A stretch of 51,437 bases of DNA, from positions 1 to 51,437 of the forward strand of contig JAFVAU010000015.1 in NCBI GenBank assembly GCA_017480345.1, written 5' to 3'. Source of the DNA: Bacteroidales bacterium (GTDB lineage Bacteria > Bacteroidota > Bacteroidia > Bacteroidales > UBA932). The position numbers and the translations under genes are program-made. Below the pieces are notes generated by a model, which was given only the letters and a program-made list of their open reading frames with translations, was not told where the DNA came from and ran no database searches. Positions 8,440-49,864 of the stretch are shown here, piece after piece. The number at the start of each line of letters is the position of its first letter. Positions within the stretch are counted from its first letter, which is position 1.

Positions 8440-9765
8440 ATGGCCATTCACACAGAAAAAACGCAGCATCGGGCGCCGGCCGCACGCAAAATGAACGGCT
8501 GGCTGGCCCTGAGCCCACTTTTTGTCTTCCTGGCGGTATACCTGGCCGGCTCCATCGTGGCCCACGATTTTTACAAGGTGCCGGTGGCCGCGGCCTTCAT
8601 CATTGCATCGGCCTATGCCCTCCTTATCACGCGAAGCGTGGAGAAGACGGACGACAAGATTGCCATTTTCTCCGAGGGCGCGGGCAACCAGAACGTGCTG
8701 CTGATGATCTGGATTTTCGTGCTGGCGGGGGCTTTTGCCGCCACGGCCAAGGACATCGGGGCCATTGACGCCACGGTGAACGCTACCCTGCGGGTGCTGC
8801 CCGGGAACCTGCTGTATGCCGGTCTTTTCCTGGCGGCCTGCTTCATTTCCATGGCCATCGGCACGTCTGTGGGGACCATTGTGGCGCTGGTGCCCATTGC
8901 TTCCGGCATTGCGGCGGAGGTGGGAGTGGGCGTTCCCTTCATGACGGCCATCATCGTGGGCGGGGCTTTCTTCGGAGACAATCTTTCCTTCATTTCAGAC
9001 ACCACCGTGGCGGCTACGGGGAGCCAGGGATGCTCCATGCGGGACAAATTCCGCGTGAACCTGTGGATTGCGGCTCCGGCGGCCATCCTGGTCACGGGGC
9101 TGTATGTGGTGCTGGGACTTTCCGTGACGGCGGCCCCTTCCGCCGCACCCGTGCAATGGATAGGGCTGCTTCCCTACCTGCTGGTGATAGGCCTGGCGCT
9201 GGCGGGGGTGAACGTGGTCACCGTGCTGGCCATAGGAATTGGCGTAAACGGCATCATAGGCTGGTGTACAGGCGCTTTTGACTTCGTGGGCTGGATGGCT
9301 TCCATCGGCGGAGGCATCGGCTCCATGGGAGAGCTCATCATCGTGTCGCTGCTGGCGGGCGGCCTGCTGGAAATCATCCGCTACAACGGCGGCCTGCAGT
9401 TTATCACGGGCGGCCTTACCCGGCGCATCGCAGGCCGACGGGCCGCTTCCCTTTCCATCGCCGCCCTGGTGTCCCTGGTGAACCTGTGCACGGCCAACAA
9501 CACCATCGCCATCATTACGGTGGGGCCTCTGGCCAAGGATATCACCGAGCGCTTCGGCCTGGATCCGCGCAAGACGGCCTCCATCCTGGACACCTTCTCC
9601 TGCCTGATGCAGGGCATCATTCCCTATGGGGCGCAGATGCTCATGGCCAGCGGCCTGGCGGGGGTGTCGGCCCTGGCTATCATCGGCCACCTGTATTATC
9701 CCTTTGCGCTGGGCGTCATGGCCTTCCTTTCCATTGTCCTGCGCTTTCCCCGGAGGTATTCCTGA
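8440..9765 (+). CDS. NhaC-family Na+/H+ antiporter-like membrane protein
   Basis: 441 residues with about 11 hydrophobic segments. The conserved central segment GGAFFGDNLSFISDTTVAATGSQGCSMRDKF is characteristic of the NhaC family in the inner membrane, which exchanges sodium (or an organic anion, in malate-lactate relatives) for protons. Substrate cannot be settled from sequence. The stop TGA shares its last base with the queH start (TGATG), so the two are cotranscribed although functionally unrelated. Confidence 0.85.
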   Translation: MAIHTEKTQHRAPAARKMNGWLALSPLFVFLAVYLAGSIVAHDFYKVPVAAAFIIASAYALLITRSVEKTDDKIAIFSEGAGNQNVLLMIWIFVLAGAFAATAKDIGAIDATVNATLRVLPGNLLYAGLFLAACFISMAIGTSVGTIVALVPIASGIAAEVGVGVPFMTAIIVGGAFFGDNLSFISDTTVAATGSQGCSMRDKFRVNLWIAAPAAILVTGLYVVLGLSVTAAPSAAPVQWIGLLPYLLVIGLALAGVNVVTVLAIGIGVNGIIGWCTGAFDFVGWMASIGGGIGSMGELIIVSLLAGGLLEIIRYNGGLQFITGGLTRRIAGRRAASLSIAALVSLVNLCTANNTIAIITVGPLAKDITERFGLDPRKTASILDTFSCLMQGIIPYGAQMLMASGLAGVSALAIIGHLYYPFALGVMAFLSIVLRFPRRYS

Positions 9766-42490: not shown

Positions 42491-43108
42491 TTATCTTTGT
42501 TTTCGATACAATTTTATCCACGTGGCCAGCGACCACAGGCCGTTAATCAGGTACAGGGCGCTCACAACGGACATGAGCACATTGCCCACGCTCAGGTGCA
42601 AGGCAATCTGCGTAAGGTTCACCAGCAGCCAGGCCATCCAGCAGTCCCACTTCTTCATGGCCGACAGGAGCTGCGCCAGCAGGATGAGCACGGTGACGCA
42701 GGAGTCCAGGTAGGGGTGCGGATCGGCCGGGAAAAGACGGTCCAGCGTCCAGCCCCAGACGGCGGCCACCACAAGCACGGACACGATGGCCAGCACCCGC
42801 TGGTTCCAGCCCAGCATACTTACCTTGAGACTGTTGTCGGCTGCTTTTTCCTCTTCCCGGGGATGCGTCCAGCGGTAATGGCCCAGCAGGTTGATGGCCA
42901 GCGAGACCGGCTGCAGCAGCAGGCTGGCGTACAGGTTCCGGTGCCAGAACAGCAGGAAGAGCGCCGCCGTGTAGAGGTAGCCCACCCAGAAGTTGTATTT
43001 GGAATTGCGCCCGGCCAGGAACACGCAGGTGAGCCCCAGGACCGATGAAATGAGGTCCAGCAGGAGCACCGGGCGGCCGGCAATTTCAAATATGATGGTG
43101 TCTAACAT
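42491..43108 (-). CDS. pnuC: PnuC-like nicotinamide riboside transporter within the suf operon
   Basis: 205 residues with about seven hydrophobic segments. The resemblance to PnuC (nicotinamide mononucleoside/riboside or thiamin facilitated diffusion) rests on NSKYNFWVGYLYTAALFLLF, the following LGHYRWTHP, and the WDCWMAWLLVNLTQIALHL helix. The frame extends to 43144, but ATG 43108 lacks the repeat-encoded residues and is preferred. It lies between sufB and sufC, which are normally adjacent. Confidence 0.7.
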   Translation of the reverse strand: MLDTIIFEIAGRPVLLLDLISSVLGLTCVFLAGRNSKYNFWVGYLYTAALFLLFWHRNLYASLLLQPVSLAINLLGHYRWTHPREEEKAADNSLKVSMLGWNQRVLAIVSVLVVAAVWGWTLDRLFPADPHPYLDSCVTVLILLAQLLSAMKKWDCWMAWLLVNLTQIALHLSVGNVLMSVVSALYLINGLWSLATWIKLYRKQR

Positions 43109-43120
43109 TCTTTTGTATTT

Positions 43121-43147
43121 GAGATGCCCGGTCATGCCGGGCATGAC
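43121..43147. repeat. REP-like palindrome between sufB and pnuC
   Basis: GAGATGCCCGGTC-ATG-CCGGGCATGAC. Arms ATGCCCGG/CCGGGCAT pair around five bases, and an alternative GTCATGC/GCATGAC pairing is also possible. The same outer sequence recurs at 46561-46588 inside the EPSP synthase gene. Confidence 0.65.
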
Positions 43148-43150
43148 ATT

Positions 43151-44587
43151 TTAACCAACTGAACCTTCGAGGGATACCTGCAGGAGTTTTTGCGCCTCCA
43201 CGGCAAATTCCATGGGAAGACGACTGAGCACCTCGCGCGCATAGCCGTTCACAATGAGCCCCACGGCTTCTTCCGGGCCGATGCCCCGCTGATTGCAGTA
43301 GAAGAGCTGGTCCTCCGATATTTTGGAGGTGGTGGCTTCGTGCTCCACCGTGGCGGTAGGGTTCTGCGACTGAATCACGGGGAAGGTATGGGCCCCGCAG
43401 CGGGAACCGATGAGGAGGCTGTCGCACTGGGAATAGTTGCGGGCACCCTGGGCTCCCTTGCCCATTCTCACCAGCCCCCGGTAGCTGTTCTGGCTCACCC
43501 CGGCCGATATGCCCTTTGACACGATGCGGCTCTTGGTGCCCCGGCCCAGGTGGACCATCTTGGTGCCGGTATCGGCCTGCTGGTGGTTGTTGGTGACGGC
43601 CACCGAATAGAACTCCGAGGAGGAAAAATCCCCCTTGAGGATGGTGGAGGGGTATTTCCAGGTGATGGCGCTGCCGGTTTCCACCTGGGTCCAGCTCAGG
43701 TGGGAGCCGTCTCCCTTGCAGATGCCGCGCTTGGTCACCAGGTTCAGGATACCGCCCTTGCCGTCGGCGTCTCCGGGGTACCAGTTCTGAACGGTGGAGT
43801 ATTTGACATCGGCCCCTTTTTCCACGACGATTTCCACCACGGCGGCATGCAGCTGCTGCTCGTCCCGCATGGGGGCGGTGCAGCCTTCCATGTAGGAGAC
43901 GTAGGAGTCTTCATCGGCCACGATGAGCGTGCGCTCGAACTGGCCGGTGCCGCGGGCGTTGATGCGGAAATAGCTGCTCAGCTCCATGGGACAGCGAACC
44001 CCCTTGGGGATGTAGCAGAAGGAACCGTCGGAGAAGACGGCGCTGTTGAGGGCCGCGAAATAATTGTCCGTGGGCGGAACCACCGTGGCCAGGTACTTGC
44101 GCACCAGGTCCGGATGCTCCTTCACGGCCTCCGAGAACGAGCAGAAGATGATGCCCTTCTCCGCCAGGGTTTTGCGGAAGGTGGTGGTGACGGACACGGA
44201 GTCAAAGACGGCGTCCACGGCCACCACGCCCGCCAGCACGTCCCGCTCCTTGAGCGGAATGCCCAGCTTGTCGAAGGTTTCCGCCAATTTGGGGTCTATC
44301 TCCTTGGGGCGGTCCTTGTCTTTCTTTGGGGCGGCAAAATAGATGATGTCCTGAAAATCAATCTCCGGCAGGTCCAGATGCGCCCAGCGGGGCTGCGGCA
44401 TCTTCTGCCAGGCGCGGAAGGCGTTCAGGCGGAATTCCAGCAGCCACCCGGGCTCCTCTTTCCGGGCCGATATGAGCCGGATAATCTCTTCGCTGAGGCC
44501 CTTGGGCAGGAACTCCTGCTCCACGTCCGTCACGAAGCCTTCCTTGTATTCTCCGGAGGTGAACTGCTGTATGATATCTTCTGCCAT
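43151..44587 (-). CDS. sufB: Fe-S cluster assembly scaffold protein SufB
   Basis: 478 residues, full length. Central scaffold on which clusters are built. It shows [19 protein letters not shown], the segment [39 protein letters not shown], the beta-helix core, and SRCGAHTFP with [16 protein letters not shown] at the C terminus. It is the first gene of the operon sufB-pnuC-sufC-sufD; no sufS or sufE is in the window. ATG 44587 is 8 bases from its -7 box. Confidence 0.96.
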
Positions 44588-44595
44588 AGGGACTG

Positions 44596-44603
44596 CAAAG
44601 ATA
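44596..44603 (-). promoter_or_regulatory. -7 promoter box of the suf operon
   Basis: TATCTTTG followed by C on the minus strand; 8 bases before the sufB ATG. Confidence 0.7.
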
Positions 44604-44606
44604 CGC

Positions 44607-45641
44607 TTATAACGCCAAATCTACAAGGACGATGGCGGCCATGGCTTCCACAATGACCGGCGTCCTGAGGGCGAAGCACACATCGTGCCGCCCCGGGATG
44701 CCGGCTTTGGCTATGCTGGAGGTGGGTTTGAAGGCCACGCGGAACACCAACGGATTGCCGTTGGTGATGCCGCCGTTCACCCCGCCGGCGTGATTGGTCA
44801 CAGGCGGCTGCGGGCGCTTGTGCCTGCCGCAGCAGTGATGCCCCTCGCCCTCCTCATGGTGGCAGCCGCCTTCGCCATGGCAGCATTCGTGGTCCTTTTC
44901 ACCCTCGTGGTGGCAGTGGTGCTCCGGGAAGGGGTCGTTGTGCTCGGAGCCTTTCATGTCGGAAGCCGCAAAACCGTCGCCAAACTCGATACCCCGCACA
45001 CCCGGAATGGCAAAAATGGCATGGGCAATCTGGCTTTCCACACTGTTCCAGAAGGGTTCACCCAGGCCGATGGGAACGCCCTCCACGGTGCATTCCACCA
45101 CACCGCCCAGGGAGTCTCCCTCCTCCTGCGCCGCCTTCAGGGCTTCCGGCCAGGCCGATGCATCCGTAAAGCCGCCCAGCTTCACCAGGCGGGCGCCAAA
45201 CTGCGCAAAATAGAGCATCTTCTTGGCAATGACGCCGGCAGCCACAATGCCCAGGGTGAGGCGTCCGCTAAAATGGCCGCCGCCGCGGGGGTCGTTGAAG
45301 CCGCCGAATTTGAGGTTGGCGGTGAAATCGGCCTGACCGGGACGGGGATTCTTCCGAAACTGCTCGTAGTCCTGACTGCGGGTGTTTTCATTCTTGAAGA
45401 GGATGGTGAGCGGGGCGCCGGTGGTGCGCCCCTCGTACACGCCGGAGACAATCTCCGGGAGGTCGCTCTCCAGACGGGGCGTGGTGCCCAGGGCGCCGGC
45501 CTTGCGGCGGGCCAAATCCTTCTCAAAATCCGCCTCGCCAAGCGGAATGCCCGGCAGTACGCCGTCCACGGTGACCCCGATGCGAGGGCCGTGGGATTCA
45601 CCGAAAATGCTTACTCTGAATTTATTGCCGAAGATGTTCAT
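44607..45641 (-). CDS. aroC: Chorismate synthase with a His/Cys-rich insert
   Basis: 344 residues. Converts EPSP to chorismate using reduced FMN. Family motifs are intact: [48 protein letters not shown], and [14 protein letters not shown] followed by [16 protein letters not shown]. Between the last two, where the family has about ten residues, residues about 239-280 (44802-44927) form an insert with about 11 His and 6 Cys ([18 protein letters not shown] and so on). It is in frame and fully open, and lies in the loop over the FMN site, so it probably binds metal. ATG 45641 overlaps the aroD-aroA stop (ATGA). Confidence 0.95.
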
Positions 45642-47656
45642 AATCTATTGAATAGTTCGTTGAAGTTAGGGAAGGACTTGGCCACGCAGTCCACGTCGTC
45701 TATCTCTACGGGGCTGTCGGCACCCAAGGCGGCCACTTTGAGGGCCATGACCATGCGGTGGTCGGAGTGGGAGTGGAACTTGCCGCCTTTCAGGAGGCGG
45801 CCGGTGGCCAAACGCTGGGAGAGGCCCATGCCCTCCACCACCATCTCGTCTTCTTCCACCCGGACGGGAACGCCCATCTGCCGGAGGGCCTCTTCAATGG
45901 CGGCGGCGCGGTCCGTCTCCTTGTGGCGGAGCCGCTCCACGCCCAGGATGTGGCTCTCGCCGGGGCAGAAGGCCGCCAGCACGGCTACCATGGGGAAGAG
46001 GTCGGGGCAGTTGTTGAGGTCTGTATGGAAAGGGCTCAGCGGGGCTCTCCGCACGTGGATGGGGCCCGTGGGGCTGTCTGTCTGGGACATGCAGGCCCCC
46101 GCCTGGATGAGGATGTCCATGATGGAAATATCGGCCTGGAGGCTCTCGGTGTCCAGACCTTCCACCTCCACTTCGCCGAAGAGGGCGCCGGCCACCAGGA
46201 AGGGGGCTGCGCCGGACCAGTCGGCCTCGATGGAAAAATCGGCCGCCTGATACCGCTGGCCGCCCTTCATGAAGAAGTTCACGCCCGTGCAGAGGCTCCA
46301 GTCCTGCGTTTCCATGAAATCTTCCCCGCCTTCCATCTCCGAGCTCATCCGGATGCCGAATTTCTTGAGCACGTCCACCGTGATGAAGAGATAAGGGATG
46401 CTTCGCGGCTCCTCAACGTACAGGGCCGATTTCCCTTCGGCCAACGGCAAGGCCGCCAGCAGGCCGGAAAGGAGCTGGGAGCCGCCTTTGCCGGATACGT
46501 CGGCCCGGCCGGGGATGAGGGGGCCGGCCACCGTGAGGGGGAGATAGCAGTCCTCCCGGCGAGATGCCCGGTCGGTGCCGGGCATGACGGCCCTCCCGTC
46601 ACTCCCGGCTTGACCGGGAGTCTCCGGGTACAACCGCACGCCATAGGCGGCCATGATGTCGTGGGCACCCGTGAGAGGGCGGCCCAGGAGGGTTTTCTCT
46701 CCCGTTATGCGCACCGGCTCCCTATTCAGGACAGAGAGCAGCGGCACCATCAGGCGGGTGAGGAAGCCGGATTCTCCGGTGTGGAGTTCCTTCAGGTTCA
46801 GGCATCCGGGCTCTGCGCCAATACCCTCTATTTCAAGCGTTTGACCGTCTATCTTTACTGTTGCGCCCAGGGCCCGGGCCACGGCCAGCGCGCTCTCGTT
46901 GTCTCCGCAGGGGGAATAGCCACCCAGGCGGGAAACGCCCTGCGCCAGCGCTGCGGCAATGATGGCGCGCTGGGCAAAACTCTTGGAGGAGGGCATCGGG
47001 AGGGAACTGGCCTTGACAAAGCGGAAGTTTCCGTAGAGGGCCTGTGCCATTTCGGAGGCCTTCCACTGGCCGGGGGCGGTGGCCTCCTCCTCGCTCACGC
47101 AGGCGTAGGTGAAGGGGGCGCCCTGCTTCAGGGCTTCCATCCGGGATTCACGTCCGGCCTCTCCCATGGCAAAGGCCACCAGGGTGCCGGGGGCGGCGCT
47201 GCCGTAGAGGGCTTTTACTGTGTCGTTATCGGCCTTGGAGGTGGCGGTGGTAACGATTTTCACCACTTCTCCGCCGAAGCTGCGGGCCCGTTCCAGGATG
47301 GATTGCAACACCGGCAGCGGCGGGGTTTCCGTGAAGTTGTGGTAGGAGCGGATGAGCACGGTGCCGCAGGAACGGCAGGCCTCGCGGATGCGTCGGCCCA
47401 CGGCGGCGGGGGCTTCCATCTCCAGGTCCACGTACTTGGCTCCGGCCCGGATGGCCTTCTCCAGGATTTCCGGGGCCTGGGACTCCTCGCTCAGGCGGCA
47501 GGTGGCGATGAGCGGCACGTCCGAGTCTTCGAACAGCTGCTGAATCTCGTCGTCGTCCAGAGCGCAGCGGTCCAGGCGGATTTCCGCCATCTCCACGGTC
47601 TCCAACAGTTCCAGGATTTCCGGAAGTTCCTTATTCTGTATGCTAACGCAGATCAT
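45638..47656 (-). CDS. aroDA: Fused 3-dehydroquinate dehydratase (type I) and EPSP synthase
   Basis: 672 residues carrying two shikimate steps. Residues 1 to about 205 are type I dehydroquinase: AEIRLDRC, ATCRL, catalytic H106 (SYHNF), Schiff-base K133 (VVKIVTTATS) and AMGEAGRESR. Residues about 211-672 are EPSP synthase: SSLPMPSSKSFAQRAII, GESGFLTRLM, GRADVSGKGGSQLLSGLL, HSDHRMVMA. Residues about 344-366 (PGQAGSDGRAVMPGTDRASR) have no counterpart in the family and are encoded by REP-like hairpins. The start overlaps the aroB end by 14 bases. Confidence 0.93.
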   Translation of the reverse strand: MICVSIQNKELPEILELLETVEMAEIRLDRCALDDDEIQQLFEDSDVPLIATCRLSEESQAPEILEKAIRAGAKYVDLEMEAPAAVGRRIREACRSCGTVLIRSYHNFTETPPLPVLQSILERARSFGGEVVKIVTTATSKADNDTVKALYGSAAPGTLVAFAMGEAGRESRMEALKQGAPFTYACVSEEEATAPGQWKASEMAQALYGNFRFVKASSLPMPSSKSFAQRAIIAAALAQGVSRLGGYSPCGDNESALAVARALGATVKIDGQTLEIEGIGAEPGCLNLKELHTGESGFLTRLMVPLLSVLNREPVRITGEKTLLGRPLTGAHDIMAAYGVRLYPETPGQAGSDGRAVMPGTDRASRREDCYLPLTVAGPLIPGRADVSGKGGSQLLSGLLAALPLAEGKSALYVEEPRSIPYLFITVDVLKKFGIRMSSEMEGGEDFMETQDWSLCTGVNFFMKGGQRYQAADFSIEADWSGAAPFLVAGALFGEVEVEGLDTESLQADISIMDILIQAGACMSQTDSPTGPIHVRRAPLSPFHTDLNNCPDLFPMVAVLAAFCPGESHILGVERLRHKETDRAAAIEEALRQMGVPVRVEEDEMVVEGMGLSQRLATGRLLKGGKFHSHSDHRMVMALKVAALGADSPVEIDDVDCVAKSFPNFNELFNRL
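46561..46627. repeat. Tandem REP-like hairpins inside the EPSP synthase coding sequence
   Basis: Hairpin 1, ATGCCCGG/CCGGGCAT (46564-46585), shares GAGATGCCCGGTC and GCCGGGCATGAC with the intergenic repeat at 43121. Hairpin 2, ACTCCCGG/CCGGGAGT (46601-46621), follows after 15 bases. The pair is translated in frame as an extra stretch of about 20 residues. Confidence 0.65.
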
Positions 47657-48644
47657 CTATGGCCTCGTTTACGGTAAGTTCTTGGATAACAGGCTCTCCC
47701 GGCGCTTTCAGGAGGATGAATTTCACCTTTCCGCCGGCGGCTTTCTTGTCTTTGCGCATGGCTTCGCCCAGGGCTTGAACCGGGTAAGGGCTCTGCATAG
47801 GGAGGCCCAGGGCTTCGAAATCGGCCTTTATCTGCTCTTCCAGGCCTTTGGAGGCCAGGCCGATTCTCTCCGACAGCCGTGCAGCCAGGACAATGCCCAT
47901 GGCCACGGCTTCCCCGTGGGTGATGTCTTCGCCCTTCTCCTGCGCCAGATGCTCGATGGCATGACCGAAGGTGTGGCCCAGGTTCAGCAGGGCCCGCTCC
48001 CCCTTCTCGTAAGGGTCCCGGGAGACGATATCGGCCTTGATGGAGGCCGCCTTGAGGATGAGCTCCGGCCGGTTTTTCACCCCGTTTTTGACGGCGGCGG
48101 CATAGGCTTTGGCGTCCCTCAGGAGGAAGGTTTTGAGCAGCTCCGCCTCTCCGGCCTTGAACTCGCGCTCCGGAAGGGTCTTCAGGACTTCCGGGCACAG
48201 GAGGGTGAATTCCGGCATCCGGAAGGCCCCCAGCATGTTTTTGTAATGGTCCAGGTTTACGCCGGTCTTGCCACCCACGGCCGCATCTACCTGCGAGAGG
48301 AGGGTGGTGGGCACATTGGCGTAGCGGATGCCGCGCTTGTAGATGGCGGCCGTGAAGCCCACCAGGTCCGTGGTGATGCCGCCACCCACGGCCACAAGGA
48401 GGGCGCCGCGGGAGGCATCGGCCTCCATGAGCTGCCGCTCAAGGGCCAGCACGGTGTCCATGGTCTTGCTCTCTTCGGAGCTTTCCAGGCCGATATAGGC
48501 CTTCGCCGGAGGAAGGTCTCCCAGGAGGGATTCCAGCACCCAGGCCACGTTCTGGTCAAACACCACAATGAGCTCCGGCTCCTTTGCCAAAAGGGCCTGG
48601 GCCTCGTCGAGGGTCACGATTTTAGGGCGGGCTATTGCATCCAT
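47643..48644 (-). CDS. aroB: 3-dehydroquinate synthase
   Basis: 333 residues. Makes dehydroquinate from DAHP; needs NAD and a divalent metal. AVGGGITTDLVGFTAAIYKRG and NVPTTLLSQVDAAVGGKTG are signatures, and NLGHTFGHAIEH supplies metal ligands. The open frame reaches 48692, but the extra residues overlap the esterase gene; ATG 48644 overlaps the esterase end by 13 bases and is preferred. The operon order is esterase, aroB, aroD-aroA, aroC. Confidence 0.95.
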   Translation of the reverse strand: MDAIARPKIVTLDEAQALLAKEPELIVVFDQNVAWVLESLLGDLPPAKAYIGLESSEESKTMDTVLALERQLMEADASRGALLVAVGGGITTDLVGFTAAIYKRGIRYANVPTTLLSQVDAAVGGKTGVNLDHYKNMLGAFRMPEFTLLCPEVLKTLPEREFKAGEAELLKTFLLRDAKAYAAAVKNGVKNRPELILKAASIKADIVSRDPYEKGERALLNLGHTFGHAIEHLAQEKGEDITHGEAVAMGIVLAARLSERIGLASKGLEEQIKADFEALGLPMQSPYPVQALGEAMRKDKKAAGGKVKFILLKAPGEPVIQELTVNEAIDDLR

Positions 48645-49864
48645 TTGAGCATATAGGCTTCTCTCTCCACAGCCCAGACATCCTCCAGCCACATGGCGTG
48701 GCCGCAGGTGGGAACGCAGAGGTATTGTTTGTCAAGGGTGCCCAGGTTGTTGTAGATGGCAAAGTTGGTATGCGGCGGGCAGGTAGGATCCTGCAGGCCG
48801 AAGGCCATGTATACCGGGCATTTCACCTGAGGGGCGAAGTTCTTGACGTCAAAGTAGCGGAGCATGGCAAAGAGCTCCTCGTGGGGGATGCCATCCTTAT
48901 CGGCCTGGTCCATCACTTCGTGGACCGGCCAGTACACGATGCGGGCGTAGTCCGGGTAATCCCCCAGGAAGGGGACGGAGACGGCGATGGCGCGGATGCG
49001 CGCATCCAGGGCGGCCGATACGAAGGTAAAGGCACCACCCTGACTCTCTCCCCAGGCCAGGATGCGCTCCGGATTGGCTTTTTCCAAGCTGGCGGCAAAG
49101 TCCACAGCGCGCCTGACGTCACAGAAGGCGCCGCGGTAGTAGAAATGCTCCTTGCTGTCTATGCCGCGGTCTATCCAGCGGTCCTGTCCATTTTTGAAAA
49201 TGCCCTGGTCACGGACGCTCACCAGAAAATCGATGCGCTCCGGGTTGGCGGATGGGTCGAAGTAATAGGACTCCGCCCCATAGCCCATGTACTGGATGCA
49301 GACGGGGTACTTGCCGGGGGCGTTGGGGATGGAGATGACACCTCCGGAGATGGCGCCGTCCAGGGAGGCGTAACGCACTTCATAACAGGTGCGAAGGTGG
49401 TTGGAAAAGTCTTCCACCACGGTATACTCCGGCTCCAGGGGCACCTGGTCCAGCTCCTTCAGGGCATCCTGCCAGAAGGCCCCAAAGTCCTTGGGGGCGT
49501 CGGGGGCGCTGACAACGGCCTCCGGCCTTATGCCGATATTCCAGCGGAGGGAGTCCCTCAGACGGACCTGATAGAAGCCCGGTTCCAGATTTCCCAGTGC
49601 AGCTTCCAGGGTGCTGTCGGCCTTTACGGTAACGGTGGCGGCAAGCACGGTGTCCGGGCTGGGGGCCATGAGGGAGACGTCCTTCACCAGCACCAGGGAG
49701 GCCTCGCCGGGGGCGGCGTCAACGTGGGTAGAAAGGGTGTAGGGGCCTTTTTCAAGGAAGAGCCAGCCCAGATCCGGCTCGCTTCGGCCGGTAGAGATTT
49801 CCTGCCGGGGAGCGCAGGTGCAAGCCATGATGGCCACTATCCCCAGATAAAGTATCCGTTTCAT
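48632..49864 (-). CDS. Acetyl xylan esterase-like (CE7) lipoprotein
   Basis: 410 residues. A lipobox (IVAIMAC) and an N-terminal beta domain (about 25-125) precede an alpha/beta hydrolase. The nucleophile is in GESQGGA, the acid in FGLQDPTCPP, and the His in PTCGHAMW, as in the CE7 acetyl xylan/cephalosporin C deacetylase family. The usual role is removing acetyl groups from sugars. It heads the shikimate operon, to which it has no obvious link. ATG 49864 is 5 bases from the -7 box. Confidence 0.88.
   Translation of the reverse strand: MKRILYLGIVAIMACTCAPRQEISTGRSEPDLGWLFLEKGPYTLSTHVDAAPGEASLVLVKDVSLMAPSPDTVLAATVTVKADSTLEAALGNLEPGFYQVRLRDSLRWNIGIRPEAVVSAPDAPKDFGAFWQDALKELDQVPLEPEYTVVEDFSNHLRTCYEVRYASLDGAISGGVISIPNAPGKYPVCIQYMGYGAESYYFDPSANPERIDFLVSVRDQGIFKNGQDRWIDRGIDSKEHFYYRGAFCDVRRAVDFAASLEKANPERILAWGESQGGAFTFVSAALDARIRAIAVSVPFLGDYPDYARIVYWPVHEVMDQADKDGIPHEELFAMLRYFDVKNFAPQVKCPVYMAFGLQDPTCPPHTNFAIYNNLGTLDKQYLCVPTCGHAMWLEDVWAVEREAYMLKWMQ

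Follow-up and report, generated by a model that had tools for sequence, protein, structure and literature searches.

What is a long, histidine- and cysteine-rich stretch doing in a loop of chorismate synthase, and what keeps it there? The question is raised by the aroC gene of the window, by which we mean the entire stretch of Bacteroidales DNA that was analyzed (51,437 nucleotides). An earlier note on this DNA had claimed a His/Cys-rich insert of about 40 residues in AroC, and the claim holds: the loop between GSEHND (residues 231-236) and NHAGG (from residue 283) is 46 residues long and contains 11 His and 6 Cys. Counted from GS to the residue before GG, the segment is 55 residues long in the window versus 20-22 residues in 20 AroC proteins from other genera of the family, a net excess of about 35 residues. 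The features of the gene, and the second group of proteins with a similar array, are collected in Table 1.

Table 1. The aroC gene of the window, the parts of its protein discussed in the text, and the ManA-like carriers of an array (residue numbers are those of the window AroC).
Feature	Coordinates	Strand	Remarks
aroC, predicted chorismate synthase	44607..45641	minus	344 aa, stop codon within coordinates; PF01264, TIGR00033, AlphaFold model
Long loop, residues 237-282, GSEHND to NHAGG	44796..44933	minus	other genera of the family have about 11 residues here
His/Cys-rich array proper, residues 241-274	44820..44921	minus	composition; purifying selection indicated among relatives
C-terminal cap HHCCGRH, residues 268-274	44820..44840	minus	among the commonest loop ends; frequently retained within the main clade
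Shortened second loop, residues 311-316, AKAGIP	44694..44711	minus	6 residues vs 20 in most compared relatives
ManA-like array carriers L232, L233, L234, L235, L237, L239, L245, L248, L264, L266, L268, L270			

The gene is predicted by profiles and by the modeled fold to encode chorismate synthase, its enzyme activity being a prediction as well. Pfam family PF01264 matches the protein with 328.8 bits (cut-off 27) over the complete profile (1-327 of 327), and the NCBIfam model TIGR00033 (aroC) scores 286.4, above its cut-off of 212.2. The scores for NF003793 (307.9, cut-off 321) and NF009113 (105.7, cut-off 799) lie below the cut-offs. No other PF01264 match occurs in the window's genome, which is 91% complete. 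The AlphaFold model has a mean pLDDT of 90.1, and all 28 of its Foldseek matches at E <= 0.001 are chorismate synthases, with TM values by query length of 0.54-0.78. The gene order at the locus is aroB, an aroD-aroA fusion, aroC, sufB, a PnuC-like gene and an ABC-type (SufC-like) gene. The fusion (45638-47656) is a 672-aa open reading frame in which a type I dehydroquinase domain is joined to an EPSP synthase domain; its end overlaps the aroC start by 4 bases. The PnuC-like transporter gene (42491-43144) lies between the SufC-like gene and sufB; a PnuC-like gene is found in the flank of 15/30 carrier loci and 7/31 other loci. No RNA family scored above threshold at 43000-49000.

The His/Cys richness of the loop exceeds chance. 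Its best 41-residue stretch holds 18 His and Cys residues, the highest value among the 176 stop-to-stop frames of at least 100 codons in the window; the runner-up, at 8844-8966 on the plus strand, has 14 in 41 residues and is a frame of unverified gene status. The array is predicted to be disordered, because the pLDDT values over residues 241-250, 251-260 and 261-270 are 61, 50 and 49, in models from a program (AlphaFold) that models no metal. By Pfam profile the array appears to match no known metal-binding domain family: searches with three arrays returned no family at E <= 1, and a PDB search with one array returned no chain at E <= 10, both being searches that serve short low-complexity queries poorly. 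A candidate for a second His/Cys insert in the window's genome was discarded. The array query found AroC and one further match at E 0.16, which falls on a TonB-receptor-like gene and off-frame readings there and was taken for chance. Among the papers listed by literature searches, no title or abstract opening describes such an insert in AroC or ManA.

Relatives of the window were surveyed for the same loop. AroC searches matched 95 of 101 genomes in the genus and 372 of 398 in the family, and the best 80 loci from a scan of named genomes were used. With fetched stretches included, the collection came to 218 loci. Six were set aside (four matches of a repeat search and two from the array search of the window's genome), and 205 of the remaining 212 were parsed. 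When a carrier is defined by a loop with at least 4 His and at least 2 Cys, a comparable loop in an open frame is found at 55 of the 205 parsed loci, many of which are two copies of one genome; the insert is therefore not an assembly accident of a single genome. For the tree we removed 27 sequences that scored below 345 bits, none of them a carrier, and 25 whose cores were identical, which left 153 distinct AroC cores: 40 carriers, 107 with a short loop, 4 with a long loop poor in His and Cys, and 2 in which the loop is deleted. All carriers with a genus code belong to the window's genus. The named carriers, which have no genus code, are Bacteroidales or Bacteroidia metagenome-assembled genomes, several of them labeled as rumen, reticulum, omasum or abomasum. 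Records named Candidatus Cryptobacteroides (L063, L074, L086) are among the near relatives that lack the array, and the genus is presumably Cryptobacteroides. None of the 20 AroC proteins from other genera of the family has it, and outside the family the reading covered a few distant loci. The array query also had the window's genome as its sole match among 393 genomes of the order (206 genera). Absence in such searches is weak evidence, because the array queries recovered only 8 of 12 known AroC-array genomes among G000-G100, missing G003, G053, G063 and G085.

In an AroC tree built without the loop region, the main clade consists of carriers throughout (33/33, SH-aLRT 93). A second clade, also entirely of carriers (6/6, SH-aLRT 98), is nested among short-loop species, and a single carrier (L089) lies just outside the main clade. 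On the quick tree the array label occupies three places with three changes, two of them forced by starred branches; a single clade of carriers was not rejected by the AU test (p 0.27). In the second loop of the enzyme, all 34 carriers of the main type have 6 residues and all 6 of the second type have 20. The insert-free L014, L024, L057, L017 and L060 likewise have 6 residues there, and 104 of the 107 short-loop sequences have 20-21. Two separate origins of the array are suggested mainly by this difference in second-loop length, and recombination that carried the array from one lineage to another would fit equally.

Carriers also show how such a loop may be lengthened. The array of L041 contains a 36-bp tandem unit (2.6 copies, 98% matches), and a recent tandem duplication lengthened it. 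A dispersed repeat, TGTCATTCTGAGCGNAGCGAAGAATCT, is found in 8 of the 40 His/Cys loops with at least 22 of its 26 fixed bases, always on one strand and in one frame. The copies in the loops read CHSERSEES or nearly so; when each of these eight loops was codon-shuffled 100 times, no shuffle matched more than 19. Of 61 genomes in the genus, 22 contain a 24-base pattern of the repeat, and none the reversed control. The window's own loop has no copy, and the core motif is absent from the window at up to 2 mismatches. By eye, the dispersed repeat CATTCTGAGCRNAGCGAAGAATCT is an imperfect palindrome, with 8 copies in the window's genome and 49 in G041. The repeat copy reads CHSEHGEES in L037 and CHSEDGEES in L009. 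This may mean that a captured segment changed towards the wording of the array, in one case by a His and in the other by an Asp, and the reverse order also fits. Four long loops without His/Cys (L011, L013, L020, L187), three of which (L011, L013, L187) share a repeat-like wording of the GGAEQSEA kind, mark the AroC loop as a site open to insertions. The palindromic elements of Rickettsia are short dispersed repeats that lie in frame inside ordinary genes. The repeat copies described here are likewise in frame, with the difference that the captured repeat sits within an array whose His and Cys seem to be selected.

A permissive loop, free length, tandem duplication and repeat capture could all be accommodated by nearly neutral low-complexity growth, in which polarity is kept only since hydrophobic residues would harm folding. 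The earlier note had offered a related way to dismiss the insert, namely its absence from close relatives or free variation in both length and His/Cys content. The relatives do carry the insert, and of the two properties only the length turned out to be free; the His/Cys content is kept. Among 37 distinct arrays, 18 nearest pairs were compared by a frame-blind DNA alignment of the array interior. Over 1651 bases, differences at codon positions 1, 2 and 3 number 48, 48 and 185, so that third positions hold a share of 0.66 (185/281), versus 0.43 for codon-shuffled partners. The share is 0.75-0.76 in longer blocks, with 0.76 in those of at least 45 bases at 75% identity. For the whole loop, the same 18 pairs give 72, 75 and 287 differences over 2373 aligned bases, and the 450 bases of enzyme before the loop give 228, 133 and 922. 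The trio L015, L016 and L090, which aligns free of gaps, gives 1/1/20, 2/2/18 and 1/1/19 at the three codon positions. Cys is the best kept residue in aligned codons (95%), followed by His (90%), Glu (81%), Gly (79%) and Asp (58%), and 16% of the kept Cys and 31% of the kept His are written with a different codon. These patterns indicate that the residues of the array are under purifying selection while its length is free.

Neutral growth is therefore unlikely. Third positions hold about two thirds of the differences, well above the shuffled value, and the foremost conservation of Cys is not predicted by polarity alone. No tandem repeat is detectable in the DNA of the window's array at score 30, so its residues appear to have outlived any founding repeat, and an array of similar residue types is present in ManA, as described below. 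Polar residues could likewise be preserved by a role in thiol or redox chemistry, or because a tolerated loop has to avoid hydrophobic residues, but hardly with Cys foremost. Relatives share the insert, and its ends are often kept in the main clade; the number and positions of the ligands in the middle of the array are not fixed.

The location of the loop could suggest a different role, in which metal bound by the loop, or its disulfides, would gate the FMN/EPSP pocket and tie chorismate output to metal or redox state. The loop directly follows the conserved GSEHND motif, and chorismate synthase uses reduced FMN (PMC3509576). The active site of the window enzyme is also not wholly ordinary. 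The first of its two near-invariant histidines, His17, is kept. The second, at residue 103 (45333-45335), is Gln in the window (rows L001 and L002) and in two relatives (L032 and L042), and the same position is Thr in L131 and L132. His occupies it in 195 of the 201 sequences in which the motif was located; the motif was not located in 4 of the 205. By alignment offset, residue 103 should correspond to His110 of the S. pneumoniae enzyme, described in the same source as the proton donor to FMN (PMC3509576). Enzymes with Gln or Thr at this position may be slow, or the function may have been relocated.

Several observations nevertheless make a gate decidedly unlikely. The carrier loops range from 28 to 102 residues between GS and NHA in the 40 carriers, whereas the geometry of a gate would be expected to be constant. 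In two close relatives, L017 and L060 (the latter present again as L189), the whole loop and the HND of the motif are deleted (GSENTHKGG and GSEQDHSGG), and the AroC genes are otherwise open frames of 327 residues. In L046 the loop has shrunk to 19 residues with 4 His and 2 Cys. The array is thus inessential to the group. A role as carrier is favored over control of the reaction because of these losses and because an array of similar kind recurs in ManA, and on the same grounds the earlier suggestion that the insert ties AroC activity to redox state or metal supply finds no support.

The recurrence was detected when an array query matched mannose-6-phosphate isomerase (ManA) in G025. A His/Cys array precedes the C-terminal cupin part in 12 of 34 ManA-like proteins, which belong to other lineages; an example is CHCGEECHCGEECHCHEEGHECHCHEESHECHCHAHESHAHEG in L237. 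The sample is biased, as 30 of the 34 were the top matches to a query that itself bears an array (8 of these 30 have one) and 4 were obtained with array queries. Among the twelve, L248 is incomplete, and for L268, which gave no Pfam match at 0.001, the name ManA is based on similarity. Five weak array matches outside AroC and ManA were rejected: L227, L229 and L231 offered no convincing array gene, and L269 and L277 no frame above threshold. The modeled L237 protein has pLDDT below 50 at residues 261-269 and 273-310. Four pairs of ManA arrays show 10, 7 and 38 differences at codon positions 1, 2 and 3 in 255 bases. Four AroC-array genomes (G003, G053, G027, G036) were each represented by one ManA-like copy, none with an array, and some of these genomes hold further copies. 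In seven ManA-array genomes (G007, G023, G025, G031, G038, G055, G066) the AroC loops are all short; G020, G024, G468, G476 and G507 were left out, their AroC being absent, interrupted by unknown bases or outside the reading. Array queries of 200 genomes each placed no genome in both the AroC and the ManA lists. The apparent exclusivity of the two hosts is a pattern rather than a test, given that the lineages share ancestry and some carriers escape the queries.

The neighborhood of aroC raises the idea that the array is an assembly or partner module that joins AroC by metal or charge to, for example, neighboring shikimate enzymes, or into higher oligomers. In the window, aroB, the aroD-aroA fusion and aroC lie side by side, and within flanks of up to 3 kb AroDA is found at 29/30 and AroB at 27/30 carrier loci. 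Non-carrier loci, with distant ones included, also have AroDA (18/31) and AroB (13/31), and we regard a partner module as very improbable.

The best explanation appears to be that a flexible stretch of His, Cys, Glu and Gly has grown in a permissive loop of AroC and is selected as a metal-binding sponge, most likely for zinc; we assign this reading a probability of roughly 0.6. The loop would grow by duplication and by in-frame capture of dispersed repeats, and selection would keep Cys and His while the length drifts. The array would bind a divalent metal through Cys-Cys-His and His-x-Cys clusters and Glu. AroC would serve mainly as its carrier, providing solubility and abundance, and the cell would benefit from cytosolic buffering or storage of metal, with the chorismate reaction unchanged. 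Metal binding, which the earlier note had proposed with zinc, nickel or copper as candidates, is the most natural reading of a true insert with selected His and Cys, and we infer it from sequence and from analogy with known proteins. Nickel has become less likely among the metals because neither NiFe hydrogenase nor urease was found in 101 genomes, many of them incomplete. Zinc or copper is likelier, and the choice of zinc is presumptive. A broader form of the idea is that the metal buffer is an array hosted by a lineage-specific housekeeping enzyme, AroC in two clades and ManA in others, and built from duplicated codons and captured repeats, as a kind of distributed metallothionein. We offer this extension tentatively and regard it as doubtful.

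Known systems provide partial parallels. The GroES protein HspA of Helicobacter pylori has a His/Cys-rich tail that is described as a nickel sequestration domain and is said to be absent outside the genus (PMC4671568). As with AroC, a housekeeping protein carries a seemingly genus-limited His/Cys stretch, a metal role of AroC being suggested by this likeness. The HspA stretch is a C-terminal tail linked in that account to nickel, hydrogenase maturation and nickel resistance, whereas the AroC stretch lies inside a biosynthetic enzyme, as a loop of variable length. Hpn of gastric Helicobacter strains is described there as very His-rich with one or two Cys-Cys motifs (PMC4671568). Hpn and Hpn-2 are, in this description, small free-standing proteins proposed as nickel stores, while the AroC array is built into an enzyme and is rich in Cys (13.9% over the 40 carrier loops). 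Chorismate synthases with an added function are also on record: those of fungi and of Mycobacterium tuberculosis are described as bifunctional, with an added flavin reductase (PMC7144000). There the added function acts on the cofactor, and the available portion of the description mentions no His/Cys array (PMC7144000).

If metal is bound, uncultured gut bacteria would have turned an essential and well studied biosynthetic enzyme into a holder of metal, possibly on more than one occasion, and a second enzyme, ManA, would do likewise in other lineages. The series of species with and without the array would then offer a way to ask how DNA repeats give rise to disordered metal-binding segments and how these become subject to selection. 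It would also mean that metal buffering can hide in enzymes annotated as ordinary.
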